A stretch of 64,000 nucleotides of DNA, taken from the NCBI RefSeq assembly GCF_017641085.1, contig NZ_JAEPPI010000003.1, positions 248,001 through 312,000 on the forward strand, in the 5' to 3' direction. Made by a program: the position numbers and the translations under genes. The notes beneath the pieces were generated by a model. The model did not search any database, was not told the DNA's origin, and saw nothing but the letters and a program-made list of their open reading frames with translations. This document shows positions 31,833 through 57,487 of this stretch, in pieces. The stretch's first letter is position 1. Every line of letters begins with the position of its first letter. The stretch is from Gracilimonas sp. (lineage in GTDB: Bacteria > Bacteroidota > Rhodothermia > Balneolales > Balneolaceae).

Positions 31833-31866
31833 TTTAAGGTTGTGTTAAGGTAGTAGGTATTATCAT
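31833..31866 (+). promoter_or_regulatory. TTTAAG-N5-GTTAAG box with -10, copper ATPase operon
   Basis: Direct repeat TTTAAG-GTTGT-GTTAAG (31,833-31,849), 11 nt gap, then TATCAT (31,861-31,866). An extra half-site TTTAG stands at 31,824. The predicted transcription start (about 31,873) lies downstream of the alternative TTG start codon of the ATPase and so helps to choose its ATG. Confidence 0.72.
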
Positions 31867-31931
31867 TGGGTAGAAACTTGAAAAAGAGGCTTGATGAAAA
31901 AGTCGAATTAAAACCTGTAACGGAGAAACCG

Positions 31932-34637
31932 ATGGCTAAGGATGTTGTATGCGGAATGGAAGTTGATAATGATTCTCCATATCAAAGTACCTATAAGGAT
32001 AAGACCTTTAAATTCTGCTCGGAAAACTGTAAAACAAAATTTGATGAGAATCCAGAAAAGTATGTTGCCAAACATCAGGACTCTCCGGCTACCTACCAAA
32101 TAACGACAAATGGTATTGAGAATATTCAATTGCCTATTGTTGACATGCATTGTGTCTCCTGTGCGACAACTATTGAAAAAGAACTCCGGAAATTGCCCGG
32201 CATTAAAAAAGCAGTTGTAAATGGTGCTACCCAAAACGCCTATGTTGAATATGAACGTTCTGAGGTTTCTGTTTCGAAAATAATAGATTCTATAAAAAAA
32301 TCAGGTTACAGAACCGGTTATGCTAAATTACGGCTTCATATTTCCGGCATGCATTGTAATTCATGCGTGTCTCAAATTGAGGAGGAACTTGTAGACACTT
32401 CAGGCATACTAAGTGTGAGTGTTGACCTTGGAACGGAGGCAGCCCTTGTAAAATATATTCCCTCAAATGTTGATTATCCTGCTCTTAAAAACATCATTGA
32501 ACGGATGGGATATCAGGTATCAGAAATTTCCCATAAATATGATGAGAACGGGAGTGATACCCAAAACACCGCAGAGGGAAATCAGGGTAGTAGTGACCCT
32601 GTAGATGAAAATGAACAGGCACGGAATAGAGAATATAAATCATTGATGTGGAAATTCATCTTTTCAGCGGTTATCTCTATTCCGGTAATGATTTTCAGCT
32701 ATCCTGATTTCCTTGGACTTCCAGACCAGTTCCAACGGGGTACCGACCTGCTGTACTGGATTTGGTTCTCCATGGGCGTGGTAACGTTGCCGGTAATGTT
32801 TTGGGCAGGCTCACATTTCTATACCGGAGCTTGGGCAGCTTTTAAAAACCGGTCGGCCAATATGCATACCCTCATTGCAGTGGGTATTACGGCAGCTTGG
32901 CTGTACTCTACGGTAGCTGTATTATTCCCGGAAATCTTTCCAACTGAAGCATTGGCTGAAGTATTTTATGATGTTACCGCTGTTGTAGTTGCTTTAGTTA
33001 ATCTGGGCTTAGCTCTTGAGATTAAAGCAAAAGGTCGGAGTTCGGAGGCTATTAAAAAACTAATGGGCCTACAGGCTAAAACAGCCCGTGTAGTACGTGA
33101 TGGGAAGGAACAAGATATACCCGTTGAAGAAGTAGTATTAGACGATATTATTGTGGTTCGCCCCGGAGAGAAGATACCGGTTGACGGGGAAATCGTGGAA
33201 GGCTCTTCGGCTATTGACGAATCGATGATCACCGGGGAATCCATCCCGGTTGAAAAACATAAGGGTGATGAGGTGATTGGCGCCACCATCAATAAAACGG
33301 GTTCATTTAAATTCCAGGCCACCAAAGTAGGCAAAGACACGGCACTTGCACAGATCGTACAAATGGTCGAGGAAGCCCAGAGTTCCAAAACACCCATCCA
33401 GCGTGTAGTGGATAAAGTTTCAGGTTATTTTGTCCCTGCTGTCATTATCCTGGCTATCGCTGCTTTCGTTGTCTGGTATCTTATAGGGCCTGCCCCGGCA
33501 CTAATTTACGCTTTGGTTGTTGCCGTTACGGTACTGATCATAGCATGCCCCTGCGCTCTGGGCTTAGCAACTCCAATTTCATTAATGGTAGGTGTAGGCA
33601 AAGGAGCTGAAAATGGTATCCTGATCCGCAGCGGAGAAGCGCTGGAGACCGCACAGAAACTTGATACCATTGTCTTAGATAAAACGGGTACCATTACAGA
33701 AGGACAACCCAAGCTGACCGACATTGTTACCGCAAACGGCTTTAGCGAGGATGAGATTCTGAATATGAGTGCCAGCGTGGAACGCGCTTCCGAACACCCG
33801 CTGGGGGAAGCCATCATAAAAGGAGCAGAAGAACGAGAACTTACTCTTCTGAACCCCATAAATTTTAACGCCGTGCCCGGTCACGGTGTAGAAGCCGAAG
33901 TGGACGGACGAAAGGTACTTCTCGGAAATGTTAAAATGATGAGAGATAACGGCATCGATACAGGCAATTTACTGGATCAAAGCACCAAACTGGCCGATGA
34001 AGGTAAAACTCCAATGTTTGTTGCAATAGGCGGAAAAGCTGCCGGAATCGTGGCCGTAGCCGACACCGTAAAAACCGATTCCAAAGAAGCTATAGCTCAA
34101 CTTAAGAACATGGGACTGGAGGTCGTCATGATAACCGGCGACAACCAGCGAACCGCTGATGCCATTGCACGCCAAGTGGGTGTGGATCGCGTTATGGCCG
34201 AAGTGCTGCCCGAAGATAAAGCCCTGAATGTGCAAAAACTCCAAAATGAAGGTAAACGAGTAGCAATGGTAGGCGACGGCATCAATGATGCACCAGCGCT
34301 GGCCCAGGCCGACATAGGGCTGGCTATCGGCACCGGAACGGATGTAGCCATCGAAGCCTCCGACATCACCCTGATCAAAGGCAGCCTGAAAGGTGTGGTA
34401 TTGGCGATCCAGCTTTCCAAGGCGACGATGAGAAATATCAAACAGAACCTGTTCGGAGCCTTTGCCTATAACACGGCCGGTTTGCCGGTTGCCGCAGGGT
34501 TGTTGTATCCGTTCTTTGGTATCCTGCTTTCGCCACTGATTGCCGCTGCCGCCATGGCTTTTAGTTCTGTAACAGTTGTTACCAATGCTAATCGGCTGCG
34601 CAAGTTCCAACCAAAATTTTCAAAAGCTAATAAATAA
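31932..34637 (+). CDS. copA: Copper-translocating P-type ATPase (P1B-1) with YHS and two HMA domains
   Basis: A 901-residue inner-membrane Cu+ (or Ag+) export ATPase. Domain order: YHS metal domain (1-47, VCGME...[10 protein letters not shown]), HMA1 with MHCVSC (C74, C77), HMA2 with MHCNSC (C142, C145), transport helices with the CPC motif (C539-P-C541), phosphorylation site DKTGT (D583), HP motif SEHPLGEA and hinge [12 protein letters not shown]. The last helices have AYNTAGLP and MAFSSVTVV, the Cu+-specific (P1B-1) determinants. A TTG start at 31,866 would add 22 residues, but it lies upstream of the predicted transcription start; ATG 31,932 has GGAG 6 nt before it. It leads an operon with a cupredoxin and three YHS-type mini-proteins. 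Confidence 0.96.
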
Positions 34638-34655
34638 ACTTAAAAGGAGATTATC

Positions 34656-35033
34656 ATGACACTTGATGAAATTTTTGTACTAATCGGTGGAATCCTGCTT
34701 ATCGCGCTTGTCGCGTGGTATTTCTGGTTTTCCAGCTCGGAGGGCACCCGTGTTCAAAGCGGTACAGGTGGGCTACAGGAAGCCCTGATTAAAGTAAAGG
34801 GAGGATATAGTCCCAATGTTATTGTAGTAGATGCCGGTAAGCCGGTGAGGTTGAATTTCCTTCGCGAAGAGACGGCCGCCTGCTCCGAGCAGGTGATCTT
34901 TCCGGACTTCGGAAAGCAGGCTACGCTAACCCCGCATAAAACCATTTCTGTGGAATTTATCCCCGATACACCTGGCGAATACGAATTTCAATGTGCGATG
35001 GGTATGCTGCGAGGTAAACTCATCGTTGAATAA
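34656..35033 (+). CDS. Membrane-anchored cupredoxin-domain protein
   Basis: A 125-residue protein with one N-terminal helix (8-25) anchoring a periplasmic cupredoxin domain (about 40-125). Likely copper ligands lie in REETAACSEQVIFPDFG and in the terminal loop GEYEFQCAMGMLRGKLIVE (Cys, Met). This cupredoxin_1 type is common next to copper ATPases, where it is thought to accept or store exported copper. 18 bp behind copA, with a clear Shine-Dalgarno AAGGAGA. Same operon. Confidence 0.9.
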   Translation: MTLDEIFVLIGGILLIALVAWYFWFSSSEGTRVQSGTGGLQEALIKVKGGYSPNVIVVDAGKPVRLNFLREETAACSEQVIFPDFGKQATLTPHKTISVEFIPDTPGEYEFQCAMGMLRGKLIVE

Positions 35034-35727: not shown

Positions 35728-35844
35728 TGCACCGAAAAACCCCTATGCATTTGGTCCTGATACGGCTAATTGCATTTCAAATCATTTTGTTCTTAAAACA
35801 TTAAGGACTATTCAAATATTTTTTAAATCCTATTGGAAGTTGGT

Positions 35845-38105: not shown

Positions 38106-38468
38106 ATGGCTCCTTTAACTCAATATCTACTCCTGCTCGGCATGGGGATTACAACAGCCGGTTTAGTGTGGATGCTTTATCTTATAAAGCAGTCGCTGGG
38201 CCAAACGCTGGACGAGCCAGGCAAGGACATCCCCGCCGAAAGCGGAAACCTGGCGCCCAAACCGGCCTGGCTGCGTTATCATGTACACTACTACGGCTAT
38301 GCCCTGCTCTTTTTGGCCTTTGATATGGAGATGGCCTACATGTACCCCTGGGCAGTGGTTTACAGAGAAGTAGGCATTCTGGCCCTGCTTGACATGGGCG
38401 TTTTTCTGATGATTTTATTTCTGGGACTTATTTATACCTGGACTCAACTCGGACTCAAACGCCAATAA
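38106..38468 (+). CDS. NuoA-like subunit of a complex-I-like membrane module
   Basis: A 120-residue protein with three helices. The core region RYHVHYYGYALLFLAFDMEM followed by AYMYPWAVVYREVG corresponds to the FDxExxFLYPWA signature of NuoA, including the acidic FDME. In complex I this subunit sits by the quinone-binding cavity. It opens a compact cluster whose next gene starts directly at its stop codon (TAAATG). No TTTAAG-type box was found in front of it, so it may be transcribed from the copA promoter or its own unrecognised promoter. Confidence 0.88.
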   Translation: MAPLTQYLLLLGMGITTAGLVWMLYLIKQSLGQTLDEPGKDIPAESGNLAPKPAWLRYHVHYYGYALLFLAFDMEMAYMYPWAVVYREVGILALLDMGVFLMILFLGLIYTWTQLGLKRQ

Positions 38469-41045
38469 ATGCCAATGGAAACGACTATGAGATACGGAGC
38501 ACGAAAAGGCAAAATGAATTTTTTCCGGAGATGGATGGCAAAGTCTGCTTCGCGGGAGCTTTGCCTGTTTCCTGTCCCGGGTCCCGATATATTGCGTATC
38601 TATCAGTCTGGCCCTCTGAACGGCGAAGCACAACTGACAGCCAATCCAAGAGAAGCTAATGTTTTGCTGATTATTGGTGATATGAATCCGGATATGGCAG
38701 AACAGGCCGCTATTGTTTACGCCCAGATGCCGCGCCCGCGGGTGCTGGTGTTGGCCGGGCCGAAACATCTTGACCCACTGCCTCACCCTGATGTACACGT
38801 TGCTCTGGAAAAAGATTTTCTTCAAACTGCATTGCCTGCTGTCAGGGAGTGCCTGAGCAGTCTTGCTTGGATAGATGAGCCGGAACCATATCAGCCGGAA
38901 GCCTTGGTAAACGAAATAGAAGAAGCCGGTAAGCAGCAGGGCCATATGCACCATCATCACCATCACGGTCATGGAGATCATGGCCACGGAGATCATGATC
39001 ACTCACAGCATAGTGGACACGGTCACAGCCACGAAGGCCACGATCATTCTGCTCACAGCCATGCGGATCATGGAGAACATGAGGGACACGATCCTTCTGC
39101 CCATCAACACGGTAATGCAGAGGAAGGGCACAATCATGATCATGGTAATCACGATCACGGGCATCTTAGCGGCCATAAGAAGGAAGGGCATGATCATTCG
39201 GCTCACACGCATTCTGCTCACGAAGGCCATGACCACAGTCACGAAGATCATAAAAATCACGGTCACAGCCATTCAGGGGAAGCAGAAGCAGGGGAGTCTA
39301 AAGGCTGCCATAGAGCATCGGACAAACCCGGCCATGATCACGGAACGCATGACCATGATCACCCACAACATACCAAACACCAGCTTGAAGGGCATAGTCA
39401 TTCCCATGGCCAGCAAAGCGGAGAAAAAAAAGATTCCCATAGTGGCCACGATCACGGAGCCCACCATCATGATCATGGACACGAGCAAGAAGGTCATGAG
39501 CTCTCCGGGCATCAGCACGGCGAACACAGCCATGGCCACGAAGGACATAGTCATGAAGAACATGATCACTCTCAGCACGAAGAACACGGACATGAACACG
39601 GAGGGCACGATCATGGACATAACCATGGCGGCCATGATCACGGACATGGAGGACACGATCACGGTTCGGGCTTTATGTCGATGATAGCTATGACCAAAGA
39701 TCTTCCCCGCAGTACAGACGGGCTGCCCATGGAGTGGAGTGATGTGCAGTTTGGCCCCTTTCACCCGGGCATGCCCGGCGGGCTGCGCCTCTCTATGAAG
39801 CTGGACGGGGATACGGTTGCCGAAGCGGAAGCAGACCAAGAGCTCCCAAGCCGTAACCTGCTTGCATCCATACCTGAGGACCCTGCCGCATTGCCGGAAT
39901 ATCTTGAAGCGATCAACCCTATGGCGCCGGTTACCTACCGGTTATTGGCACAAAAAGCACTATTAAATTTTTCTGATGAAGCGGGTAATTCTGCGCTAAC
40001 CCTGTTCGAGGCAGTGCTGTTGGAAAAAGAACGAATAACCAGCCATTTGAACTGGCTGGCTGTTTTTGCCACAGCACTGGGCAGCGGCTGGATGCGCGAC
40101 CAGGCTATAAAACATTACCACCGTTTCCAAAACGGTATCGGAAATATGGAGCAGCTCTCCGGGTTTATCCGCCGGATAAAAAAGATGCCGTATCTGAAAT
40201 TGAAATTAAGTGCCGCCGTCCACAACCCCGGGGGAACGGAGAAACATAGCGAGGAAGCTGCCGGTACTCATAAAGACCATCACCACGAACATAATGCGGA
40301 CTCCCATTCAGGTCACTGCCATGAAGAAAGTGGCGAGCAGAAACCTCATGACCATGGTGGGCATGAAGGCCACGAACATGATCACGGAGCCCATGGACAC
40401 GGAGAAGAGCATGATCACCACGAAGGACACGGGCATAGTCACGAAGGTCATCAACATGGTGAGCACGATCATCATAGCCATGAAATGCATCAGCACACCG
40501 GGCATGAGACCCATGACCATCATGAACATGTTCATCACGATCATGCAAGCAAAGATGAAAAAAACAAAGTTACCGGTGCTGTGCCCGGTCAGCTGCCTGA
40601 CGATATCACAGGGCCGGTAGCCCGGGCTGCAGGAATTGAGAAAGACCATCGGTTAGAGGAAGCCGTGTATCAGCAAGCCGGGTGGACTCCCGTAACCGCT
40701 GCCGGTAACAATGCCTGGAGCCGGCTGATGGTACGGCTGGACGAAATTGAACAAAGCCTGCGATTTATAGAAAAAGCGGGAAACGATTCCGGCAAAGAAT
40801 CTTCACGAAAGATCAACATACCATCTGTCGGAATGGGGAATGGTATTGCACACATTGAGAGCCCCCGTGGTATAGTAACACTAAAATTTCATATTCATGA
40901 GGGTAAACTGGCTCATATGCACCTGACAACCCCCTCCGTGGCACTGGCGGGGCTGGTAAAGCCGGTAACCGAACAGCAGGAGCTGGCCGATGCACTGATA
41001 GCCGTGAACTCACTGGATATTTCACCCTGGGAAATTAACCCTTAA
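38469..41045 (+). CDS. Giant His-rich NuoB-NuoD hybrid without Fe-S ligands
   Basis: An 858-residue soluble protein. Residues 1-150 resemble NuoB: ANVLLIIGDMNPDMAEQA fits its nucleus, and QMPRPRVLVLAGPKHLD and EPEPYQPEALVNEI fit the places where NuoB has its cluster cysteines, but all of these are replaced. Residues about 159-398 are almost pure His/Gly/Asp/Ser (about 86 His). Residues about 405-590 resemble the NuoD N-terminus (VQFGPFHPGMPGGLRLSMKL, with the HP of the quinone site). A second His-rich block (592-697, about 39 His) follows, then a NuoD-like C-terminus (TGPVARAAGIEKDHRLEEAV; ESPRGIVTLKFH; NSLDISPWEINP). No NiFe or N2-type cysteine set exists; only four cysteines are present. 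Redox catalysis is very unlikely; metal binding is very likely. Confidence 0.88.
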   Translation: MPMETTMRYGARKGKMNFFRRWMAKSASRELCLFPVPGPDILRIYQSGPLNGEAQLTANPREANVLLIIGDMNPDMAEQAAIVYAQMPRPRVLVLAGPKHLDPLPHPDVHVALEKDFLQTALPAVRECLSSLAWIDEPEPYQPEALVNEIEEAGKQQGHMHHHHHHGHGDHGHGDHDHSQHSGHGHSHEGHDHSAHSHADHGEHEGHDPSAHQHGNAEEGHNHDHGNHDHGHLSGHKKEGHDHSAHTHSAHEGHDHSHEDHKNHGHSHSGEAEAGESKGCHRASDKPGHDHGTHDHDHPQHTKHQLEGHSHSHGQQSGEKKDSHSGHDHGAHHHDHGHEQEGHELSGHQHGEHSHGHEGHSHEEHDHSQHEEHGHEHGGHDHGHNHGGHDHGHGGHDHGSGFMSMIAMTKDLPRSTDGLPMEWSDVQFGPFHPGMPGGLRLSMKLDGDTVAEAEADQELPSRNLLASIPEDPAALPEYLEAINPMAPVTYRLLAQKALLNFSDEAGNSALTLFEAVLLEKERITSHLNWLAVFATALGSGWMRDQAIKHYHRFQNGIGNMEQLSGFIRRIKKMPYLKLKLSAAVHNPGGTEKHSEEAAGTHKDHHHEHNADSHSGHCHEESGEQKPHDHGGHEGHEHDHGAHGHGEEHDHHEGHGHSHEGHQHGEHDHHSHEMHQHTGHETHDHHEHVHHDHASKDEKNKVTGAVPGQLPDDITGPVARAAGIEKDHRLEEAVYQQAGWTPVTAAGNNAWSRLMVRLDEIEQSLRFIEKAGNDSGKESSRKINIPSVGMGNGIAHIESPRGIVTLKFHIHEGKLAHMHLTTPSVALAGLVKPVTEQQELADALIAVNSLDISPWEINP

Positions 41046-41057
41046 CAGATAGTTGTT

Positions 41058-41960
41058 ATGACGCCTTTTTTAAGCGGTTTTATGATTACCCTCCTTTTTG
41101 TGGGAGGAGTATATTTTGTAGCAGTACTGGAACGCTGCTCAATGACGGGAAACGTAAGCTGGAGCGGTCCGGCCCGGTCATTTTTGCTGCTGTTTGCCCA
41201 AGAGGAGATCAAAACCCGAAAGCACGACAAGGTGTTTTTTGAAACAGCTCCGATCCTTTTTATCGGAGTGATCTTGTTGACGATTTCCATCCTGCCGTTC
41301 AGCCGGGGAAGCGTGGTCATCGATCTGGGAACCGGCGCCCTCTTTATCAATGCGGCGCTGGTCTATATAATGGTGGCCCTGCTGATGGCCGGATGGGCTG
41401 TTAACGGCGTGTACGCCATGGTTGGCGGCTGGCGCGCGCTGGCACAGCTTATCGCCTACTCCATGCCGGTAGTAATGGCATTGACGGCCACGGTAATGCG
41501 GGCTGAATCAATGTTTCTGACAGACATCGTCGAATCCCAACAGTCTTTGTGGAATATTCTATATCAGCCGGTGGGTTTCATTTTGTTTTATATTTCGGCG
41601 CTGGCCATCGCTTTTCTTCCCCCTTTCGACCTTCCGGTAGCAGAAGGTGAGCTGGCAGGAGGGGTCTGGGCCGACCTTACCGGCGCCCGCAAGCTGTTGT
41701 TTCGTCTGGGCCGGCTTGCTTTGGTGTTAACTTTGTCGGTAGCAGTGGTTGTACTGTACCTGGGTGGATGGATGGGCCCCTGGCTGCCCGGTTTTGTCTG
41801 GACTTTTCTGAAAACCTTACTGGTAGCGGCCTCTTTTTTTGCTGTCGGTCATTTTATACCCCGCATCCGGCACGACCATCTGCTGGAATACAACTGGAAG
41901 TACGGGGTACCCTTAGCCCTTTATAACATATTTCAGGTAGGAGTAGTCTTGCTGTTATGA
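41058..41960 (+). CDS. NuoH-like subunit of the complex-I-like module
   Basis: A 300-residue protein with about eight helices, corresponding to NuoH (ND1), which connects the membrane arm to the quinone site. The conserved FDLPVAEGELAGG motif (the FDLPEAE signature) is present, as is AQLIAYSMPVVMAL. The following TEYSG of true NuoH is replaced by ADLTGARKL, so the quinone-site loop has changed. It overlaps the next gene by 4 bp. Consistent with a NuoH that no longer needs to handle quinone redox chemistry. Confidence 0.92.
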   Translation: MTPFLSGFMITLLFVGGVYFVAVLERCSMTGNVSWSGPARSFLLLFAQEEIKTRKHDKVFFETAPILFIGVILLTISILPFSRGSVVIDLGTGALFINAALVYIMVALLMAGWAVNGVYAMVGGWRALAQLIAYSMPVVMALTATVMRAESMFLTDIVESQQSLWNILYQPVGFILFYISALAIAFLPPFDLPVAEGELAGGVWADLTGARKLLFRLGRLALVLTLSVAVVVLYLGGWMGPWLPGFVWTFLKTLLVAASFFAVGHFIPRIRHDHLLEYNWKYGVPLALYNIFQVGVVLLL

Positions 41961-42475
41961 TATCTGTACAACTCATATTACTTATTATTTTTGGCCTGGC
42001 GGCTATCTGGTTTGGATGGCGCGTTTTTATGACCAGCTCTATGGTGCGGTCAGCTCTCTCACTTCTGGCGTCCATGGTGGCCATCGGCATATTATTTCTC
42101 GTTATGGAAGCCGAATTTTTGGGTGTTCTGCAAATCATGATGATGGGAACCGAAATGAGTATCATGGCCATCTTTATGATGATGTACATGATGGATCCTG
42201 GCGGGCTGGGACAGATGGATATGTATCACCAGAAAAATATCTCCATAGCAGCGGGCGTAATTGTAACCGTATTGATAGTCGGTGCTGCTCTTACCACCGA
42301 CTGGGGTACAATAGCTACTCAGTTTCCGGGGCCGCATGAGCAAAACCGGCTGCTGGGTATGGAAATTCTGAAGCGGTCGATGATGATCTTCGAAACCGCC
42401 GGGGTGACCATTCTTACCGGAATGATCGCCTCTATCGCAGTCGCTTTGTCAATTAAAAACAGCGTGGAGAAGTAA
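41957..42475 (+). CDS. NuoJ-like subunit of the complex-I-like module
   Basis: A 172-residue protein with five helices, matching NuoJ (ND6) in size and position. A conserved part is FLGVLQIMMMGTEMSIMAIF, comparable to the FLAVVQVIVYAGAVMVLFLF region of NuoJ helix 3, which carries the pi-bulge of complex I. Position between NuoH- and NuoK-like genes agrees with the canonical order. Translationally coupled to both neighbours. Confidence 0.85.
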   Translation: MISVQLILLIIFGLAAIWFGWRVFMTSSMVRSALSLLASMVAIGILFLVMEAEFLGVLQIMMMGTEMSIMAIFMMMYMMDPGGLGQMDMYHQKNISIAAGVIVTVLIVGAALTTDWGTIATQFPGPHEQNRLLGMEILKRSMMIFETAGVTILTGMIASIAVALSIKNSVEK

Positions 42476-42480: not shown

Positions 42481-42789
42481 ATGGAGCTATTAATTACAGC
42501 ACTTATTATTGCCGCCGTCCTTTTTGGTATAGGGCTCTACGGCGCCTTAAGTCAGACAAATTTGGTAATGATCATGATGGGAATTGAACTGATGCTGGGA
42601 GCAGCCATGATCAACCTGGTAGCTTTTTGGCGCTTTCTTCATCCCGACGCCTTCTCCTTGCAGATGTTTGTGCTGGTAGCCATGACTGTGATGGCTTTGG
42701 AAGGAGCCGTCGGCTTTGCCATTGCCACTCAGCGGTTCCGTACCTCGGGAACGGTTGAAATGGAAGAATCAGCAGAATTAAAAGGATAG
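42481..42789 (+). CDS. NuoK-like subunit of the complex-I-like module
   Basis: A 102-residue protein with three helices (ND4L). The motif MIMMGIELMLGAAMINLVAF contains the membrane-embedded Glu of NuoK that takes part in proton transfer (E36 in E. coli); the second acidic residue is in MTVMALEGAVGFAIA. Proton-path residues are thus kept. Canonical position before the NuoL-like gene. Confidence 0.93.
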   Translation: MELLITALIIAAVLFGIGLYGALSQTNLVMIMMGIELMLGAAMINLVAFWRFLHPDAFSLQMFVLVAMTVMALEGAVGFAIATQRFRTSGTVEMEESAELKG

Positions 42790-42796: not shown

Positions 42797-44683
42797 ATGG
42801 CAGCAATATTACTTACCATATTAGCTCCACTGGCGGCAAGTGCCTGGATTATCGTAACCCGGAAAAAAATAGGGTATGCAGCCTTAACCGGGGCAGCAGG
42901 CTCTCTGGCCGGTTCGATACTGCTTTTTATGGCCGCTTTGAACGGCGCTGTTACTCAACTGCAATTTACCGGGCTTCCGGGAATGCCCTTTCGCCTCGAA
43001 GCCACAGAAATGGCGGCCGTACTTGCTCTGGTTGTCGCTGTGATTACCACCTTCATTTTAGTGTATGCCATCGGGTATATGAAAGAAGAAAAAGGAAAAC
43101 TCCGTTTCTGGAGCGGCATAACGCTTTTTATGGGGGCCATGCAGTTGTTGGTGTTAGCCGGAGACTGGATCTTGTTTGTGATAGCCTGGGAGGTTATGGG
43201 CTTTGCCTCCTATTTGCTGATCGGCACCTGGTACTGGAAGAAAGAAGCTGGTGACGCCGCAAACAAAGCGTTTATTATGAACCGGGTGGCCGACCTCGGG
43301 CTCTATGTCGGGGTATTCGTGATCATTCTTGCCGGCGGGTCCAGCCAGATTTTAGCTGAACCCGTACAGGGCGTTTCTGTAGTGGGAACCCTGGCTCTGC
43401 TGCTGGCGGTAATGGGTAAATCGGCACAGGTTCCTTTCCAGAGCTGGCTTTCGGCAGCCATGGCGGGCCCAACACCTGTTTCGGCCCTGCTGCATTCGGC
43501 CACAATGGTGGCGGCAGGTATTATTCTGCTGCTTAAAGCCTTCCCTCTTTTCCCGCCGGACGCTCTTTTCTTGATCGGCTTAGTGGGAGGAATAACCATC
43601 CTGCTCGCCGGTGCAACTGCCATATTTTCCGAAGATATCAAACGTATGCTTGCCGCGTCCACCTCAAGTCAGCTTGGTTTTATGGCGCTGGCTATTGGCG
43701 CCGGGTATCCGGCCGCGGCCCTGGCCCACCTGATTGCCCACGCTTTCATGAAAAGCAGCTTGTTCCTGGGAGCCGGAATCTTTCAGCACGAAATGCATTC
43801 CACAAATTACGAAAAGCTCAAAGGCTCAGGAAAGAAACTGAAACTGGCTTTTTCAGGATTCGCCGTGTCCGGGCTGGCCCTGGCCGGGATCCCTCCATTA
43901 ATCGGCTTTTGGTCGAAGGATGCCATCCTGACGGCAGGCCTGCAGGCCGACCCGGCCTCATGGTACTTTTCCGCTGTGCTGATTGGAGCTTTTTTTACTG
44001 CTATCTATATGGGCCGCGCATTCGGAATTTTATGGAAAGGACACAGCGAACCGGAAGAAAAGCCAAAGAAACTGCCTTGGATGCATCTCGGATTTCTAAC
44101 CCTGGTAACGGCTGTTATTGCAGGCTGGTTGTTTCTGGATCCTTTGGTTGAAACGTCAGGTTTTTCCATTCCAAAAGACAACATTGCCATGATAAGCGGG
44201 CTTGGAGCTGCTTTTCTTGGTTTGGCAGCAGGCTGGTTTGCCACCGCTCCCATCTTTAAAACCCAGGTGTGGATGTTTTTCCGGGATAACTATCCCGTAG
44301 CAGGCGGCTACACCAATGTTATCGTGCAACCGTTTCAGATGCTGGCAACCGGCGCAAACCTGATCGAACAATTTCTGCTTCAATCTGTCTTTGAGATTGG
44401 CAAGGCGTTTTTAATGTTGGCGCGCTGGCTGGCCAATGTGCCGGACCGTGCGATGGCTTTTGTGATCGACCAAATCGGGACATTCAATCTGAACATCGGC
44501 CAATGGTCCCAAATAACGGACGATCGCGGCATTGTGGAGTGGATTGCCGGCTTGGTGGCATCCATCCAGCGACTGGGCCAATACGGGCGGAACATTCAAT
44601 CGGGACTGGTTCACCGCGAACTAGCATGGTCGGTGTACGGTATGATCTTAGCTTTAATTATTTTATCACTAACCTATCTGTAA
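42797..44683 (+). CDS. NuoL-like antiporter subunit of the complex-I-like module
   Basis: A 628-residue protein with about 15-16 helices plus the long C-terminal lateral helix typical of NuoL (E. coli 613). Key residues are kept: the Glu in VIAWEVMGFASYLLIGTWYW and the Lys in VMGKSAQVPFQSWLSAAMAG, followed by GPTPVSALLHSATMVAAGI. These form the Mrp-antiporter-like proton channel. The C-terminal part DDRGIVEWIAGLV, then RLGQYGRNIQSGLVHRELAW, matches the clamp region of NuoL. The subunit therefore seems able to move protons. Confidence 0.95.
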   Translation: MAAILLTILAPLAASAWIIVTRKKIGYAALTGAAGSLAGSILLFMAALNGAVTQLQFTGLPGMPFRLEATEMAAVLALVVAVITTFILVYAIGYMKEEKGKLRFWSGITLFMGAMQLLVLAGDWILFVIAWEVMGFASYLLIGTWYWKKEAGDAANKAFIMNRVADLGLYVGVFVIILAGGSSQILAEPVQGVSVVGTLALLLAVMGKSAQVPFQSWLSAAMAGPTPVSALLHSATMVAAGIILLLKAFPLFPPDALFLIGLVGGITILLAGATAIFSEDIKRMLAASTSSQLGFMALAIGAGYPAAALAHLIAHAFMKSSLFLGAGIFQHEMHSTNYEKLKGSGKKLKLAFSGFAVSGLALAGIPPLIGFWSKDAILTAGLQADPASWYFSAVLIGAFFTAIYMGRAFGILWKGHSEPEEKPKKLPWMHLGFLTLVTAVIAGWLFLDPLVETSGFSIPKDNIAMISGLGAAFLGLAAGWFATAPIFKTQVWMFFRDNYPVAGGYTNVIVQPFQMLATGANLIEQFLLQSVFEIGKAFLMLARWLANVPDRAMAFVIDQIGTFNLNIGQWSQITDDRGIVEWIAGLVASIQRLGQYGRNIQSGLVHRELAWSVYGMILALIILSLTYL

Positions 44684-44686: not shown

Positions 44687-46165
44687 ATGGATTTTTCATC
44701 ATTACCATTGCTCTCAATCACTACATTCTTGCCGGTTATAGGGGCACTTGTCATTATGGTACTCCGCCCCAAACAAACCAAAACCGCCTATGGTATTGGG
44801 ATAGCCTTCGCGTCACTCACCCTGTTGGCTGCTATTATGATCTGGATACAGGGTATAGGCAGCGGTTTGTCACAAGTTGAAGAACTCAGCTGGATACCAT
44901 CCTTAGGCATAGCTTACCGGTTGGGAGTGGACGGCATTAGCTTTCCCCTGGTGCTGTTGACGGCATTTTTGTTCCTGACCTCGCTGATTTTTTCTGCAAA
45001 GATCAAGGATAGCGCCAATATCTTTATTCAACTGGTTCTGATGCTGGAGACCGCCTGTCTTGGGGTATTCCTTTCGCTTGACCTCTTTCTTTTTTACGTG
45101 TTTTTTGAAATCACTCTTGTTGGCATGTATTTTATCATAGCCAAATGGGGGCACGAACATCGCAAAAAGGCGGCTTTAACTTTCTTTATCTATACCCTGG
45201 TAGGCAGTTTGTTTCTGCTGCTGGCGTTTTTGGCGCTGTATCTTTTTTCCGATGCCAATACGTTTGACATACAACAGTTGATAACAAATCCCACCATAAC
45301 CGGACTTGCAGCTACGCTTACGTTCTGGGGATTATTTATCGCTTTTGCTATTAAAACACCGCTTTTCCCATTCCATACATGGCTTCCTTTGGCTCACACG
45401 GAAGCACCTGCTGCCGGAAGTGCCATCCTGGCGGGGGTGTTGCTGAAACTGGGCACCTATGGTTTTATTCGCTTTCCATTGCAAATGACGCCTGATGCAT
45501 TTCGTGAATTTGCACCTTACGTCATCGTTATTGCCGTCTTTACAGCGCTGTACGGGGCTTTCGTAGCCCTGGCCCAAACCGATATCAAGCGGATGGTGGC
45601 CTACACCAGTGTAAACCACATGGGGTATCTGATATTTGGTGTGGCCATAGCAGCCGTCACCACTACCACATCCGGCATGATTGCCCTGGACGGAGCGGTA
45701 CTTCAAATGATAAGCCACGGTGTGGTTACAGGGGTGCTTTTCCTGCTGGTAGGAGCTCTTCAGGATCGCACTGGTACGCGGGAAATGAACGAAATGAGCG
45801 GGCTGCTAAAAGCCTACCCGATTTTAAGCGGACTTTTTATGCTCGCGGCCTTTGCTTCTCTGGGACTGCCCGGGCTGGCTCATTTCCCTGCCGAGTTTCA
45901 AATCTTTTTAGGCGGCTTTGATGTGTATCCAGTCGCCGTCGGGATCATCATTATCGGACTACCGGTTACTACAGCCTTGTACCTGCGGGCTATTCAAAAA
46001 GTATTTTTAGGTACCCTGCCGGAAGGATTTAGCGGACTTAAAGATTTGGGAAGCCGGGAGCTGTGGGCTATTGTTCCTTTGATATTAGCTACCATACTGA
46101 TTGGAGTATATCCCGATTCCCTGCTCTCGATGATTCATGCTACAACTAATTTCTTCGGACTGTAA
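44687..46165 (+). CDS. NuoM-like antiporter subunit of the complex-I-like module
   Basis: A 492-residue protein of about 14 helices, the ND4-type antiporter subunit. Conserved proton-channel segments are FYVFFEITLVGMYFIIAKWG (Glu of helix 5), FAIKTPLFPFHTWLPLAHTE (Lys of helix 7) and LAGVLLKLGTYGFIRF (second Lys). A quinone-site contact is not expected. It starts 3 bp after the NuoL-like stop, hence co-translated. Confidence 0.95.
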   Translation: MDFSSLPLLSITTFLPVIGALVIMVLRPKQTKTAYGIGIAFASLTLLAAIMIWIQGIGSGLSQVEELSWIPSLGIAYRLGVDGISFPLVLLTAFLFLTSLIFSAKIKDSANIFIQLVLMLETACLGVFLSLDLFLFYVFFEITLVGMYFIIAKWGHEHRKKAALTFFIYTLVGSLFLLLAFLALYLFSDANTFDIQQLITNPTITGLAATLTFWGLFIAFAIKTPLFPFHTWLPLAHTEAPAAGSAILAGVLLKLGTYGFIRFPLQMTPDAFREFAPYVIVIAVFTALYGAFVALAQTDIKRMVAYTSVNHMGYLIFGVAIAAVTTTTSGMIALDGAVLQMISHGVVTGVLFLLVGALQDRTGTREMNEMSGLLKAYPILSGLFMLAAFASLGLPGLAHFPAEFQIFLGGFDVYPVAVGIIIIGLPVTTALYLRAIQKVFLGTLPEGFSGLKDLGSRELWAIVPLILATILIGVYPDSLLSMIHATTNFFGL

Positions 46166-46170: not shown

Positions 46171-47532
46171 ATGGCCACTGATTTACTGAATATTTCACCA
46201 CAGCTTATTGTTTTATCCACCACGGTTATCGTGTTATGCCTGGAAATGGCCCGATTACCCCGGGCTGCACTATGGGCTTTGGTGGTTGGCATGCTCACAG
46301 CCACCGGTGTTGCCGTAGATATGCTGGGGACAGACACAACAGCTTTTTCCACTACCTTCCGTGTTGACGCACTCAGCTTGTGGGCCGTCATCATTCTGGG
46401 GCCGGCAACCATCCTTTTTGCTTTGCTGGGCCGATCGGAGCTGAAAGATTCGGCCCGCGAAGGCACCATATACAGCCTGATGGGCTTTTCAGCCTTGGGA
46501 GCCATGATTTTGGCGGGCAGCGGAGATCTCATGTTCATTGTACTGGGCCTGCTTATTAGTACTCTTGCCGGTATGGCCATGGCAGCTCACCCAAGGAACG
46601 ACCCTTCCAGCGAAGGAGCGATGAAGTACTTTATTTACGGATCAGTAGCCGGAGCCATCATGCTTTTCGGGCTAACCTTCTGGGCGGGCCTTGCCGGAAC
46701 GACGCTGATTTCCGGGATTAACAATCCTGACTTATCCTCTTATGCCGTTATGTTCGGCTTTATTACCCTGGTAATTGGAATCGGCTATGCGGCTTCCCTG
46801 TTTCCCGTCCATTTCTGGACGCCCGACACTTTCGAGGGCGCACCCGTCTCCATAGCCGCCTACCTGTCGGTAGTTCCCAAGATAGGGGCCCTGTTTGCAC
46901 TCGCGCAGGTGGTTCGTGATCTTCCGGTTTCCCTTGTTGACTGGCCGTTGATCCTGGCCGTGCTGGCCGCGCTGTCCATGACCTTTGGCAATGTGGTAGC
47001 GCTGTGGCAGGACAATGTGATCCGGCTGCTGGCCTACTCCACTATTGCACAGTCAGGGTATTATCTGTTGGGAGTAATCGGAGTGGGACAAAGTACGCTT
47101 GCGATCGATTCAATGGTGGTTTTTGGGGTAGCATACCTGCTTATGAACGCAGGCGCTTTTGCCATTACTTTGGGCGAAGGCACCCGGCTGGACGATTTTA
47201 AAGGCATGGGAAAACGCCGGCCCTGGCAGGCGGTGGGTATGACCATTTTCCTGCTCTCCCTGGTAGGGATGCCGCCCCTGGCCGGCTTTGCCGGCAAATT
47301 TCTACTGTTTGGGGCAGCCATAGAATCCGGATATAGCTGGCTGGCGGTTGTTGCCATCCTGAACAGCGCAATTTCTCTTGCAGTTTATATGCGGATTGTG
47401 GTACCCATGTTTTTTCAGGAAGCCGAAGATGGGCAAATCAGAACTTACGCTCCGGGAACATCCTTCGTATGGATAAGCACACTTGCCTTAACGATAGCTG
47501 CGGGAATTGGCGTGCAGTGGTTTCTGGGTTAA
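46171..47532 (+). CDS. NuoN-like antiporter subunit of the complex-I-like module
   Basis: A 453-residue protein of 13-14 helices (ND2 type). Conserved segments are ASLFPVHFWTPDTFEGAPVS and LSVVPKIGALFALAQV, with the functional Lys, and ATAGVAVD-like N-terminal helices. The start codon follows the NuoM-like stop by 5 bp. With A, H, J, K, L and M the complete membrane arm is present; genes for NuoC, E, F, G and I are absent from the whole window. Confidence 0.93.
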   Translation: MATDLLNISPQLIVLSTTVIVLCLEMARLPRAALWALVVGMLTATGVAVDMLGTDTTAFSTTFRVDALSLWAVIILGPATILFALLGRSELKDSAREGTIYSLMGFSALGAMILAGSGDLMFIVLGLLISTLAGMAMAAHPRNDPSSEGAMKYFIYGSVAGAIMLFGLTFWAGLAGTTLISGINNPDLSSYAVMFGFITLVIGIGYAASLFPVHFWTPDTFEGAPVSIAAYLSVVPKIGALFALAQVVRDLPVSLVDWPLILAVLAALSMTFGNVVALWQDNVIRLLAYSTIAQSGYYLLGVIGVGQSTLAIDSMVVFGVAYLLMNAGAFAITLGEGTRLDDFKGMGKRRPWQAVGMTIFLLSLVGMPPLAGFAGKFLLFGAAIESGYSWLAVVAILNSAISLAVYMRIVVPMFFQEAEDGQIRTYAPGTSFVWISTLALTIAAGIGVQWFLG

Positions 47533-47543: not shown

Positions 47544-48578
47544 ATGCATACATTTTATCTTATTTTAGGTATCACCATACTCGTCGTAATTGCTTACGAC
47601 TTTTTCTATACCACGCTTTCCTTCAACGGGGCAGGATACCTGTCCCTGTTGACGAGCCGGTTCCTATCTGCTCTTTTCCTTTTTTTGAACAGGTATATCC
47701 CCCGGCGAAACGCGTTGCGCTACTCCGGGGTAACGCATATCCTTTTTCTTCTTGGAATGTGGATCGGGCTTTTATGGATCGGATTTTTCCTGCTGCTCGT
47801 CAGCGATCCCCGCTCGGTAGTAGAAGCAGGCACAGGATCTGCCGCAAGCGTTCTTACCAAGCTGTATGTAAGCGGATATACCCTTTCCACCCTGGGAGTA
47901 GGTGACTATATACCGGGTTCCGAAGGGTGGCAGATTATAATGGCCGCCTTTTCATTTGCCGGCTTTATTTTCATAACTACCGCCATGACTTATCTGATGA
48001 GCCTGACCACGGCGGTGATCCACAAAAGAAATCTCAGCCTTTTTATAGCAAACATGGGAGATACACCTGAAGAAATTCTCATCAATCTGTATTCTTGTGA
48101 AGAAGAGCATTTCATAATGTTGCCAGATTTTTCAATCAAGCTCAGGGAGATGATCAATAAACATAACCAGAATCACTATGCCCACCCGGCTGTGCATTAT
48201 TTCTACAGTACGGCAAGGGATGAATCACTATCCATCAATTTGGTAAATGTAGATGAAGCAATAACAATTTTGATTCATTATGTTGAACCAAACAGATGGC
48301 GGGAACAGGATATTGCACCGCTCAGAGACGCGATTACCAAATTTTTGGACACAGCACGCCGTCATTACCATCAAATGCCGGAAGAAATCGATAGGTTTCC
48401 GCTGGATATTGAATACCTAAAATCCAGGAATGTTCCATTAAAAGAGCATCAAGCCATGTCTTCAAATAGTTATGAAATGAATGAACGCAGAAGTTCATTG
48501 CATGGATTGTTACGTAGTAATGGTTGGAGCTGGAATGAAGTTTACCAAAAGCAATCGAACAAAAACAATTTTAAATAA
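47544..48578 (+). CDS. Potassium-channel-like membrane protein with a C-terminal soluble domain
   Basis: A 344-residue protein. Helices at about 3-20, 64-85 and 132-156 enclose a pore-loop segment VSGYTLSTLGVGDYIPG, where TLGVGD corresponds to the TVGYGD filter of K+ channels with Val in place of Tyr. The rest (from about 165) is a soluble, mostly helical domain without an obvious RCK signature. The gene starts 11 bp behind the NuoN-like gene and is likely part of the same transcript, which would link a cation channel to the complex-I-like module. Ion selectivity cannot be predicted. Confidence 0.78.
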   Translation: MHTFYLILGITILVVIAYDFFYTTLSFNGAGYLSLLTSRFLSALFLFLNRYIPRRNALRYSGVTHILFLLGMWIGLLWIGFFLLLVSDPRSVVEAGTGSAASVLTKLYVSGYTLSTLGVGDYIPGSEGWQIIMAAFSFAGFIFITTAMTYLMSLTTAVIHKRNLSLFIANMGDTPEEILINLYSCEEEHFIMLPDFSIKLREMINKHNQNHYAHPAVHYFYSTARDESLSINLVNVDEAITILIHYVEPNRWREQDIAPLRDAITKFLDTARRHYHQMPEEIDRFPLDIEYLKSRNVPLKEHQAMSSNSYEMNERRSSLHGLLRSNGWSWNEVYQKQSNKNNFK

Positions 48579-50798: not shown

Positions 50799-53700
50799 CT
50801 ATGTTTCCGTGTTGCTGTCTTTCAGCTGATGGGCTTTCTTTTCCACCATGTAATAAATTAGCGGAACCATCAGCAGTGTAAGGGCCGTTGAAGCTATTGC
50901 TCCGCCCATCAGAGAAATCGCCAATCCCTGGAAAATCGGATCGAACAGTATCACAAACGCTCCAATTACGACGGTACCGGCTGTCAACAGAATGGGCATG
51001 CTGCGCACAGCCCCGGCTTCAATAACCGCCTGTTTCATTGTTTCTCCTTCATTAAGCCGTATTTCGATAAAGTCAATTAACAGCACGGAGTTACGCACCA
51101 TAATACCTGCCAGGGCAATCATACCGATCATCGAGGTTGCTGTAAAGAAAGCACCCAGCACCCAGTGCCCGATGAGAATACCTACCAGCGAGAGCGGAAT
51201 GGCGATCATCATAATAATGGGTACTTTGAAATCCTGGAACCAGCCAATAATGAGCATGTAAATAATCACCAGTACAACGGCGAAAGCGATCCCGAGGTCA
51301 CGAAATACCTCGTAGGTAATCTGCCATTCTCCGTCCCACTTCAGCGTATAATCCTCCTGCATGAAGGGCTGTCCGGCAAAAATCTGATCCAGGCTGTAAC
51401 CGGCGGGCATATCAATGGCATCAATCTTTTCGCCGGTATCCAGGATGGCATAGACCGGGCTCTCGATAGCCCCGGCTACTTCGGCCGTTACATATAACAC
51501 CCGGCGCTGGTTTTTGCGATAAATACTGGACTCCAACGTATCTTCGGTCACCGTTACTAAATCTGTTACCGGAATCATAGCGCCTGAAGCCGACTGCATA
51601 TAAAGGCGGCTTAACTGCTCAATCCCGGAGCGCTCGTTTTCAGGCAGCTTTAAAACAATAGGGATATCATTGATCTCATCTTCGCTGTACAGGCGTGAAA
51701 CAGGCTGGCCGCTCAGCGCCATCCTGACCGTCTGCACCACCTGCCGGGATGAAATGCCGGAAAGCATCGCTTTTTCGGTATCCACATCCATTTTATATTT
51801 GGTCTGGGGCGCTTCCTTCATCCAGTCCACATCAACGATGCCCTCCATTTCCCCGAAGATATTTTTCACTTTACGCCCCACCCTCTGGCGCTGTTCTTCA
51901 TCCGGGCCATATATTTCGGTAACCAGCGTGGATAGTACAGGCGGGCCCGGCGGCACTTCCACCACTTTAATATTGGCGTTGTATTTGTCGCCCACCTTTT
52001 GCACAATGGGGCGGATGCGCTTGGCAATAGCGTGGCTTTGATCGCTGCGCTCTCCTTTATCCACCATGTTCACTTGTATATCCGCCACGTTCGCACCTTC
52101 ACGAAGGCCATAGCTCCGGACTAACCCGTTAAAGTTTATAGGGGCGTTGGTACCGGCATAAATTTGATAATCAAGAATTTCCGGTATTTCTTTTAAACTT
52201 AGTCCCACTTCCCGTGCCACGGCATTGGTCCGCTCCAGGGTGGTTCCTTCCGGCATATCGATGATGAGCTGTACCTCGTTTTTATTGTCAAAAGGCAGCA
52301 TTTTTACTTCCACCATACGAAATACGAAGAGCAGGATTGAGGCGAAAAGCAAAGCGGTTACGCCTCCGATAAACACCCAACGCTTGGTTACGCTTTCCAG
52401 CAGCGGTTTCATAATGCGCGAGTACCATTTATAGATACGGGTATCTTCAAGCCGGTACTCCTTGTCGGCACCGCTCTCGTCTTTTTCAGGCTTCACGTGG
52501 GGCAGCAGCATGTAAGCCAGCCAGGGAGTAATAATCAGTGCTACAATCAGAGAAAAGATCATAGCCAGCGATGCGCCAATGGGCATAGGGCTCATATACG
52601 GCCCCATCAAACCCGATACAAAAGCCATCGGCAGTACCGCCGAAATGACGGTGAAGGTAGCGAGGATGGTCGGGTTTCCTACCTCGTTAATCGCCGCAAT
52701 CGCCGCCTGCTTTAACGGAAGTTTACGCATCTTAAAGTGTCTGTGCATATTTTCAGCTATAATAATGGAGTCGTCCACTACAATACCGGTTACAAATATC
52801 AGCGCAAATAGGGTGATTCGGTTCAGGGTATAGCCGAATATATAGTAGAGAAACAGGGTGAGTGCGAAGGTTACCGGTACTGATAAAAAGACCACCAGGC
52901 CTCCCCGCCATCCCATGGCCAGCGCTACAACTATGGTAACGGCAAGTATGGCGGCCAGCAGGTGTTCCAGCAGAGAAAGCACTTTCGAGGCAGCAGTCTC
53001 TCCATAGTTACGCGTAGTCGTTACAGTAATCTCAGCCGGAATAAGGCTGCCATCCAGCATATCCACTTTTTCCTGAACTTTTTCGGCAATAAACATGGCA
53101 TCCGAACCCGGGCGCTTGGCTATTGAAAGCGTTACTGCGGGATAGGATTCTCCAATATTCATTCTGGATTTCTCCGCTTTGGCATTTCCCACCCCGTAGG
53201 AAACATATTCGGCTGGTTCTTCAGGCCCGTCGGTTACCTGGGCAATACTCTTCAGGTAAATCGGGTCGCCGCCCTGTACATCTACGACAAGGTTGCGCAC
53301 TTCGTCGGCATTGCGAAAGAAACTGCCGGTTTCTACCAGATACTGCGTGTCATTTTTATTGAATGAACCCGAGGAAAGCTCCTGATTGGCCGCCTGTATC
53401 TGTGCCGCTACCTTCATTGGGTCGATACCATAGGAAGCCATTTTATTTTTGTCGAGGGAGACCTCAACCTGGCGTGTCCGCCCGCCGTGGATTTCGGCCT
53501 GGGCTACATTCTCGATTTGTTTGATCTCCAGCGCCAGCTCATCAGCCACCCGGCGGATCTCAAAATCGCTGTACGATTTGCTCCAGAGCGTCAGCGTCAT
53601 AATGGGTACATCGTCAATGGAGCGTGTTTTGACCATCGGCGGGGTGGCTCCCTCCGGCATTTGGTCTATATTTTTCATCAGCTCGTTATACAAGCGTACC

Positions 53701-54029: not shown

Positions 54030-54052
54030 AATATCTGTTTCGTTCTGTGCGG

Positions 54053-55195: not shown

Positions 55196-55197
55196 GG

Positions 55198-56925: not shown

Positions 56926-57414
56926 CTACTTGTGATGTTGTTCGTGATTTCCATTTCCAGACCCCTTATCGTCCTTATCCATCATGCCTTTTTGATCCAT
57001 CATATCGCCCTGCATCATCATCTGCATGCACATCATATTCATCTTCATCATGGATGAATCGCTCTTCATGTCCATCATTTTAGACTGATCCATATTGCCG
57101 TCCATCATAGACTGCATCATCTCCATGTGTTTTTGCATGCGCTGTTTCATTTCAGGATTATTCTTCATGTTTTTCATCATGGCTGATTGACCCATGCCTA
57201 CAGATCCCACCATTTTTTGCATCATCTGCTTGCGCATTTCGGGGTTTTGTGCCATTTGCTCCATCATCATAGACCGCATGGTCGAATCCTGCATCATTTC
57301 CATCATTTGTTGTTTCTTTTGGCTCATGTCAGCTTTTTTCTGCTGTGCAAAGCCGGAGCTTGCAATCAGCATCAAAGAGAACATAAGTACAAAAACTACT
57401 GTTAAACGTTTCAT
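56926..57414 (-). CDS. Methionine-rich secreted protein (paralogue of 18,796)
   Basis: A 162-residue protein with a signal peptide (MKRLTVVFVLMFSLMLIASS, ending GFA-Q). The mature part repeats the Met-rich motifs of the protein at 18,796 in the same order: QQMMEMMQDSTMRSMMMEQM, NPEMRKQMMQKMVG and QSKMMDMKSDSSMMKMNMMC. The paralogues share signal-peptide cut, motif order and a terminal His-rich end (HEQHHK here, HQKHHN there). I chose ATG 57,414, which has GGTGA upstream; a start at 57,426 would add four residues. Second gene of the DUF302-efflux operon. Confidence 0.85.
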   Translation of the reverse strand: MKRLTVVFVLMFSLMLIASSGFAQQKKADMSQKKQQMMEMMQDSTMRSMMMEQMAQNPEMRKQMMQKMVGSVGMGQSAMMKNMKNNPEMKQRMQKHMEMMQSMMDGNMDQSKMMDMKSDSSMMKMNMMCMQMMMQGDMMDQKGMMDKDDKGSGNGNHEQHHK

Positions 57415-57487
57415 AATAGTCACCATTTGTTTTGTGTTGGTTTGAAATTAAAATGTATTCGGGTACTTCAAATAAAAAATGCTGTGC

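Follow-up and report, generated by a model that had tools for sequence, protein, structure and literature searches.

We find that a 64,000-nucleotide stretch of DNA from Gracilimonas sp., a member of the Balneolaceae (contig NZ_JAEPPI010000003.1, positions 248,001 to 312,000; hereafter the window), contains an operon of eight genes, nuoA-BD-H-J-K-L-M-N, the ends of which overlap or nearly touch. The second gene, BD (38469-41045, forward strand, ATG start), encodes an 858-residue fusion of a NuoB-like part, a histidine-rich linker and a NuoD-like part, and the other genes encode homologues of complex I membrane subunits. No genes for NuoC, NuoE, NuoF, NuoG or NuoI are found in the operon, based on gene calls and Pfam searches of the window, or in the relatives' operons that were read. 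We consider it very probable that the complex is dedicated to copper and carries out no redox chemistry. Gene content and surroundings suggest a second, electron-free proton pump beside copper-resistance genes, that is, a respiratory enzyme rebuilt to handle copper.

The fusion protein and its redox and proton residues

The original prediction, made from the letters of the window, was of a NuoB-NuoD fusion with about 125 histidines in two insertions, and the open reading frame, its composition and the homology searches agree with both points. The NuoB-like part comprises residues 1-158 (38469..38942), and the first linker, residues 159-401 (38943..39671), consists of His, Gly, Ser, Glu and Asp, with 86 histidines by composition count. 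The motif MSMIAM (M403/M405/M408; 39675..39692) directly follows this linker and precedes the residues DGL; an M-x-M ahead of DGL is found in 14 of 16 BD proteins, and in a 15th. The first piece of the NuoD-like part, residues 409-592 (39693..40244), has both PDB profile and profile-profile matches. It is separated from the second piece, residues 699-858 with the stop codon (40563..41045; Complex1_49kDa at 713-773), by a second, genus-specific His-rich insertion of residues 593-698 (40245..40562) with 39 histidines; all these segments are on the forward strand. The two linkers hold 125 of the 139 histidines of the protein. Both His codons are used (CAT for 80 of the 139, CAC for 59), and thus the His richness is a feature of the protein rather than of one DNA repeat.

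The NuoD homology of the fusion is firm, as judged from its sequence: the Pfam match to Complex1_49kDa has an E value of 2.8e-14, the best solved match in a PDB profile search is MbhL (6cfw_L, 2.5e-15), followed by NuoD/NdhH of complex I at about 1e-14, and profile-profile comparison gives 99.3%. The NuoB homology appears weaker by single-sequence methods (Pfam E value of 0.021, under the family cut-off; PDB profile match to NDUFS7 at 3e-4 over residues 56-97), and is supported by profile-profile comparison, with 96.7% and 3.3e-10 over 55 columns. The two crossed profile-profile comparisons, which served as negative controls, gave 0.08% each. Structure prediction of residues 1-155 and 401-591, with three closely related sequences as input, yielded mean pLDDT values of 44 and 45; the eight top Foldseek matches of the low-confidence model of the NuoB part (pLDDT 44-45) were NuoB or MbhJ chains, at E values of 0.08-0.2 that are not significant.

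The NuoB-like part has no Fe-S cysteine set, as had been predicted for the cluster cysteines, and this holds in both an alignment and a count. Cysteine aligns to the E. coli NuoB N2 cysteines in 0 of 14 relatives of the same kind (hereafter copper-type) and in 6 of 6 canonical proteins; three of the N2 columns carry other letters in the 14 relatives, apart from gaps at the first two in Arthrobacter, and all 14 have a gap at the fourth. Of the four columns, the third alone falls within the confident 55-column NuoB alignment. Independent of alignment, the NuoB-like part has 0-2 cysteines in 12 of the 14, three in Arthrobacter and four in Pseudarthrobacter, and no column is Cys in more than 4 of the 14. 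Conserved cysteines do exist in the linkers of relatives, but these belong to HMBD motifs and not to an Fe-S site at the NuoB position. The NuoD landmarks on which the original prediction relied do not imply a working quinone site, because the quinone-ligating His and Tyr are lost (0/15 and 0/14, respectively, of sequences with a residue there; both present in 6/6 canonical). These residues, H224 and Y273 in the 596-residue E. coli numbering, were taken by offset to be H228 and Y277 of PMC13324432. No redox gene is seen inside the relatives' operons that were read. The loss of redox function is well supported by these sequence comparisons.

Most of the proton residues are kept. We checked 16 complexes (15 for NuoH, as the record of L038, from Rubrobacter marinus, has no intact NuoH). 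NuoA E81 is kept in all 16 and D79 is either Asp or Glu, and at the positions of NuoK, NuoL, NuoM and NuoN that we take to be the key charged ones, all 16 have NuoK E36 and E/D72, NuoL E144/K229, NuoN K247/K395, and NuoM E-or-D144, K234, K265 and E407. With redox residues lost and proton residues mostly kept, the complex looks like a proton machine without electrons.

The operon genes of the window, all on the forward strand, illustrate this pattern. In NuoA (38106..38468; Pfam Oxidored_q4, 6e-25), Met74/76/79 flank the equivalents of E. coli D79/E81, and in NuoH (41058..41960; Pfam NADHdh, 7e-59), the equivalents of E157 and D63 are replaced. NuoK (42481..42789) keeps E36/E72, with Gln in place of R25 and a methionine at position 30. 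The antiporter-like subunits NuoL (42797..44683) and NuoM (44687..46165) keep their key charged residues, and the third, NuoN (46171..47532), keeps K247/K395 but is changed at E133/K217/H305.

Methionines at the NuoA/J/K junction

The copper-type complexes differ from canonical complex I by an excess of methionines in NuoA, NuoJ and NuoK. We defined a copper-specific column as one in which a residue is found in ≥90% of 18 copper-type complexes and in ≤15% of the canonical sets. The 18 complexes are the 16 of the residue check plus L058 and L061 (17 for NuoH, again due to L038), and the canonical sets number 20 proteins for NuoA, 35 for NuoJ, 33 for NuoK, 6 for NuoH, 4 for NuoL and 5 each for NuoM and NuoN; the J and K sets are mostly from one phylum and the H, L, M and N sets are small. 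There are 34 copper-specific columns, and Met occupies 11, all among the 24 columns in NuoA, NuoJ and NuoK, compared to none of the 10 in NuoH, NuoL, NuoM and NuoN (Fisher p 0.0135). Of the 313 columns that are conserved overall, Met makes up only 19, a number that includes these 11, so that a share of 11 in 34 is unexpected (p 3e-6).

In E. coli numbers, Met is present in 18/18 copper-type complexes at NuoJ 25/58/66/70/74/84/86/138, NuoA 82/85 and NuoK 30, and these 11 columns (8 in NuoJ, 2 in NuoA, 1 in NuoK) hold Met in 0-14% of the 20-35 canonical proteins. Window NuoA Met76 and Met79 are found in 18/18 copper-type and 0/20 canonical proteins and Met74 in 16/18 copper-type proteins, and NuoK 25 is Gln in 18/18. 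NuoJ of the window (41957..42475, forward strand; Pfam Oxidored_q3, 6.5e-17) has 21 methionines in 172 residues; identity to it among the copper-type proteins falls to 25%, yet Met occupies 8 of the 17 conserved columns. What we term the methionine gate comprises Met62/63/67/70/74/78 of the third transmembrane helix (TM3) of this protein and an MxM motif, Met87/89, in the TM3-4 loop (42140..42223, forward strand). Two further positions with Met, NuoK 33 and NuoA 103 in E. coli numbering, were not counted, because canonical proteins usually have Met there as well (29/33 and 16/20), and a one-face stripe of methionines on TM3 was considered but is not claimed.

The positions affected include some to which a gating role has been assigned. 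The pi-bulge Tyr59 and the gate residue Ile63 of canonical NuoJ (35/35 and 34/35, respectively) are both Met in 16/18 copper-type complexes; the gate role of TM3 and I63 comes from PMC13324432 and PMC10212512. When E. coli complex I is closed, E84 of NuoJ pairs with R25 of NuoK (PMC10212512, Table 2); Glu at NuoJ 84 is found in only 11/35 canonical proteins. The path from D79 of NuoA through TM3 of NuoJ to E36 of NuoK is described as the energy-coupling gate (PMC13324432), and the Met and Gln sites of the copper-type complexes surround this path. Five plasmids fetched later (L102-L106) all agree at ten NuoJ columns, NuoA 82/85 and NuoK 25/30, and three of them also have Met at NuoA 80. It is reasonably likely, to judge from these residues, that Cu(I) is bound at the methionine gate.

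Copper genes, linkers and relatives

The link to copper is well supported. Copper marker genes are found near 13/19 copper-type loci versus 0/8 canonical nuo loci (p 0.0014), in a comparison in which the markers were picked from the same 19 loci, the window, L032 and L035 share one neighborhood, the plasmids are rich in metal genes, and two of the eight canonical loci (L055, L056) are parts of a single split complex, that of the host. Across loci, the neighbors include a CopA-type oxidase, CopB, a copper-type ATPase, CueR and a cupredoxin. Among 112 related genomes, CopB is present in 4/4 carriers of the fusion versus 19/108 others (p 0.0014, kinship uncorrected), and lies 27, 19, 34 and 3 kb from the fusion on the same contig; a fifth Balneolaceae carrier, G067, which is outside the 112-genome set, has CopB about 3-4 kb from the fusion, again on the same contig, and thus 5/5 carriers have CopB. 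Of the later-fetched plasmids, which lie outside the 19-locus count, 3/5 have a heavy-metal ATPase within a flank of about 5 kb, with none at L103 and L105.

A copper connection of a similar operon has been reported. In Marinobacter atlanticus, a complex I-like NuoADHJKL operon interrupts copper genes, and its expression, like theirs, is higher on an electrode at 160 mV; Eddie et al. suggest that copper redox provides the energy (PMC8233155). In the available text, the likeness lies in complex I-like genes inside, and expressed with, a copper-resistance cluster; NuoM/N, a NuoB part, a metal-binding linker and a methionine gate are not reported there. Set side by side by description, the Marinobacter operon probably belongs to the same family. 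An Alteromonas plasmid copper island with 'hydrogenase genes' (PMC8478169) possibly holds the same complex. In the literature searched, to the extent that it was accessible, PMC8233155 was the only paper found on such an operon, and none was found on the fusion, the linkers or the methionine gate.

The two linkers noted originally are both present in the window, but only linker 1 is found in all six aligned Balneolaceae fusions; linker 2 is confined to the four of the window's genus and is a genus-level extra. The number of histidines in the fusion ranges from 30 to 141 across the Balneolaceae, and such wide variation is expected of a reservoir. The HMBD domain (PF19335) occurs in heavy-metal ATPases and CusB-type proteins. 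The linkers of the plasmid relatives have His tracts and 2-5 HMBD motifs: 2-3 in Rubrobacter and alphaproteobacterial linkers, by Pfam or motif, and five by motif in Thioclava. Here, unlike in other HMBD proteins, the domain lies between NuoB- and NuoD-like parts, and the window protein has His tracts instead. A His-rich stretch (at least 6 in 40 residues) occurs in BD or NuoJ of 16/18 complexes and in a 17th on an open frame. Pseudonocardia has a long GEH-repeat tract upstream of the annotated start, and Arthrobacter has a Met/His/Asp-rich tract. The five canonical control complexes have at most 4 in 40 residues, except for the host's NuoL.

In complexes with a short BD or none, NuoJ often carries the His tract, as an insert in the TM3-4 loop or a C-terminal tail. 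At the junction of the arms, the TM3-4 loop of NuoJ communicates with the TM1-2 loop of NuoA (PMC10212512), and the five helices of NuoJ would place its C-terminus on the same, cytoplasmic side as that loop. The metal tract would thus be at the same location in all variants. The proposal that the linkers face the cytoplasm seems right in light of complex I topology.

The fusion is not a single case: BD is diagnostic for a complex that is widespread and often carried by plasmids, and that is found in Balneolaceae and on actinobacterial, alphaproteobacterial and gammaproteobacterial plasmids. A 180-residue NuoD query matched genomes of the same genus or family at 92, 79, 51 and 49% identity, with the remaining matches to canonical-type NuoD at 23-28%; two named metagenome-assembled genomes match at 98 and 92%. 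The complex is rare in its phylum, as window NuoJ finds matches at E ≤1e-8 in only 3 of 394 genomes drawn from it. A tblastn search with the L036 BD protein matched 30 plasmid records, 12 of them covered at 78-85% (9 at least 80%), and two NuoJ searches together matched 31 of 72,556 plasmid records (not each checked), including Rubrobacter, Paracoccus, Sulfitobacter, Roseovarius, Nitratireductor, Halomonas, Acuticoccus, Arthrobacter, Pseudonocardia, Gordonia and Mycobacterium. Plasmids of Mycobacterium avium, M. intracellulare and M. paragordonae (H113-H118) carry an actinobacterial form of NuoJ. No relative was found in three scans of viral contigs and in phage records.

The BD gene is labeled by NCBI as 'heavy metal-binding domain-containing protein' or 'hypothetical protein'. 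Its product ranges from 861 to about 290 residues, and is shorter only through a late annotated start (L053) or an insertion element (L058). The annotated start of the Pseudonocardia gene (L053:11228-12631) is probably too late, since the open frame adds a NuoB-like part and the GEH-repeat tract. The annotation splits NuoH of Rubrobacter marinus (L038:14366-15141) into short fragments, which may reflect a disrupted gene or an error in sequencing. Along the window and the related locus of G005 (L035), compared as DNA in 500-base steps, the flanks are 92-100% identical and BD and nuoH (window 38500-41999) only 69-83%, a pattern that recombination would give if it had exchanged only these two genes.

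In a tree of concatenated A-H-J-K-L-M-N, all 18 copper-type complexes fall on one side of a 100/100 branch from five canonical complexes; the tree program warned of uneven letter make-up and of long branches among the canonical rows, and the set was built without Ehr, Fpo or hydrogenase sequences. L032, a near-copy of the window, was left out of the Met and tree counts and kept among the 19 context loci, and L034 was left out as the same locus as L033. Three loci were left out of all counts: Xanthobacter L042, for a truncated gene (an annotated bilirubin oxidase is nearby), and Vreelandella L059 and Ornithinimicrobium L060, which are fragmentary or poorly annotated. Legionella L048 and Paenibacillus L051, initially NuoA matches, both proved to be canonical complex I and were kept as controls.

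Possible functions and genomic surroundings

The copper-type unit shares with respiratory complex I homologues of NuoA, H, J, K, L, M and N, most residues of the proton path and a scaffold derived from NuoB and NuoD. It differs in lacking C, I, E, F and G, in the loss of the N2 cysteines and quinone ligands, and in having the methionine gate, metal-binding linkers and a location in copper islands that are often on plasmids. Although MbhL is the best solved match of the NuoD part, the gene set A-BD-H-J-K-L-M-N sets the unit apart from Mbh and other group 4 [NiFe] hydrogenases. The Ni-binding cysteine pairs of the group 4 large subunit are absent: the NuoD-like part has 0-5 cysteines, none in the window, and no column is Cys in more than 4/16. 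Nor does the unit correspond to the Mrp antiporter set (MrpA-G without NuoA/H/B/D), as the operon has NuoA, H and BD. Ehr complexes are energy-converting hydrogenase-related, complex I-like assemblies without a Ni site; we know of no copper link or His/HMBD linker in them.

With some reserve, we favor the reading that the operon encodes a non-redox descendant of complex I that exports Cu(I) in a proton-coupled manner. Of the electron-input module, a single NuoB-linker-NuoD scaffold would be left that has neither Fe-S nor quinone ligands, and copper ions would be collected by its His tracts in the cytoplasm, a task that HMBD domains would perform in relatives. The Met motif at the linker end, together with the MxM of the NuoJ TM3-4 loop, would hand Cu(I) to the junction of NuoA, NuoJ and NuoK, at which the complex I pi-bulge gate would have been remade with methionines. 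Passage of Cu(I) through this gate would be coupled to proton movement via NuoK/N/M/L, and proton-motive force would drive Cu(I) export to the periplasm, where the multicopper oxidase, CopB and the RND pump would take over. Export by proton entry fits a resistance island, and if the complex is a Cu(I) transporter, it is probably an exporter. The original suggestion of a gate for metal joined to a proton channel appears right. We are slightly more hesitant about the wider proposal that such complexes may form a new class of metal transporter. In this proposal, complex I would have lost its redox engine and had the gate between quinone and protons remade with methionines, Cu(I) instead of quinol would drive, or be driven by, the long proton relay, and the complexes would have moved from phylum to phylum, in many cases with copper-resistance plasmids.

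A long-standing dispute, centered on the NuoA/J/K gate, concerns the way in which complex I couples quinone chemistry to remote proton pumps. A natural complex that has the pumps and the gate without an electron path or quinone site, and in which the gate is made of metal-binding residues, offers a direct test of coupling. If the reading is true, the complex would also be an unrecognized component of plasmid-carried bacterial copper resistance.

Several observations weigh against the export reading. All copper-type complexes, and hence their Met columns, may descend from one common ancestor; the later-fetched plasmids were chosen for the similarity of their NuoJ and are related to complexes already in the comparison; and 2/18 copper-type NuoJ proteins keep Tyr59 and have Phe63. 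The copper counts are not independent, given the shared source of markers, the shared neighborhood and the metal-rich plasmids. No marker genes lie within the stretch examined at 5/19 loci (L033, L039, L049, L058, L061), and DUF305 is the sole marker at L046; the L033 genome has a multicopper oxidase and CopB about 35 kb off, and L061 has an annotated copper oxidase and a CusA/CzcA pump. His density by itself is not decisive, since the host's canonical NuoL reaches 8 His in 40 residues. BD is missing in Rhodopseudomonas and Methylobacterium, in which nuoH directly follows nuoA. Proton coupling may be altered, as NuoN E133 and H305 are lost throughout, at NuoN K217 the five Balneolaceae have Ala or Thr and two other complexes Glu, two complexes have Glu in place of NuoL K399, and NuoH E157 is lost in 13/15. 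Finally, a copper ATPase and RND exporters already adjoin the operon, and a further exporter needs a reason.

The main rival, which we consider unlikely, is that no copper crosses the membrane and that Cu(I) at the methionine gate switches proton flow through NuoL/M/N, giving a pH or membrane-potential response to copper stress. Some of the Met columns fall on the gate residues by which the E-channel is connected, BD resembles the arm of a sensor, and the potassium-channel gene after nuoN (window, L032, L036, L037) could balance charge. However, the Met columns extend beyond the gate (NuoJ 58 to 74, 84/86, 25 and 138, NuoA and NuoK) in a manner more like a path, and a reservoir of 125 histidines is large for a sensor. 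We regard as improbable an ion pump driven by Cu(I)/Cu(II) chemistry in place of NADH and quinone. This is the proposal of Eddie et al. for Marinobacter (PMC8233155), and it agrees with the multicopper oxidase genes near several loci, the retained proton residues and an upstream FAD-dependent oxidoreductase that is a conceivable electron partner, with a 36% relative near the Paracoccus operon; but no Fe-S cysteine set or quinone ligands are left, and the operons read contain no redox gene.

It is similarly doubtful that the complex only buffers or chaperones metal in the cytoplasm, with a vestigial membrane arm as its anchor. The very high and variable His content and the 2-5 HMBD motifs would suit a buffer, but the seven membrane subunits retain most key charged residues in 16 complexes (NuoH is not intact in one record), and two lineages keep the membrane arm without BD. 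As to the metal, the original prediction left the choice among Zn, Ni, Co and Cu. His-rich tracts are typical of Zn/Ni proteins, but Met thioethers favor Cu(I)/Ag(I), and the neighbors, from the CopA-type oxidase and CopB to the cupredoxin, are those of copper systems, which makes a Zn/Ni/Co system very improbable. Copper, which was on the list, is the most likely metal based on the copper-island context, the HMBD domains and the methionine gate.

Returning to the window, the copper island includes a heavy-metal P-type ATPase (YHS and two HMA domains) and a cupredoxin upstream of the operon (31866..35033, forward strand), and, on the reverse strand downstream, an RND efflux pump with its membrane-fusion protein and outer-membrane factor (50799..56565) and a Met-rich, secreted-looking protein with 46 Met in 166 residues and no Pfam match (56926..57426). 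Further flank genes encode a DUF302 protein, a sensor kinase and a cytochrome c, and a multicopper oxidase and CopB lie just beyond the window edge. The potassium-channel-like protein directly after nuoN (47544..48578, forward strand; Ion_trans_2 just under the cut-off), which has relatives near nuoN at L032, L036 and L037, is possibly part of the unit and may act as a charge balancer. In Acuticoccus L050 and Pseudarthrobacter L058, the annotation also shows potassium-channel genes, here immediately ahead of nuoA.

The canonical complex I of the host is split between two distant loci, A-H (L055, G000:C1) and J-N (L056, G000:C3:725-741 kb); within the search, which did not cover E, G and I, subunits A, B, C, D, F and H were found on contig C1 and J-N on C3. 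The host's one NuoF adjoins its canonical NuoD, and another antiporter-like gene set lies elsewhere in the genome. The FAD-dependent oxidoreductase upstream of the operon is at 35833-36993, and its 36% relative near the Paracoccus copper-type operon is at L039:7402-8544. An open reading frame at 18724-19269 on the reverse strand has 50 His in 181 residues, and may be mere antisense of another coding stretch.

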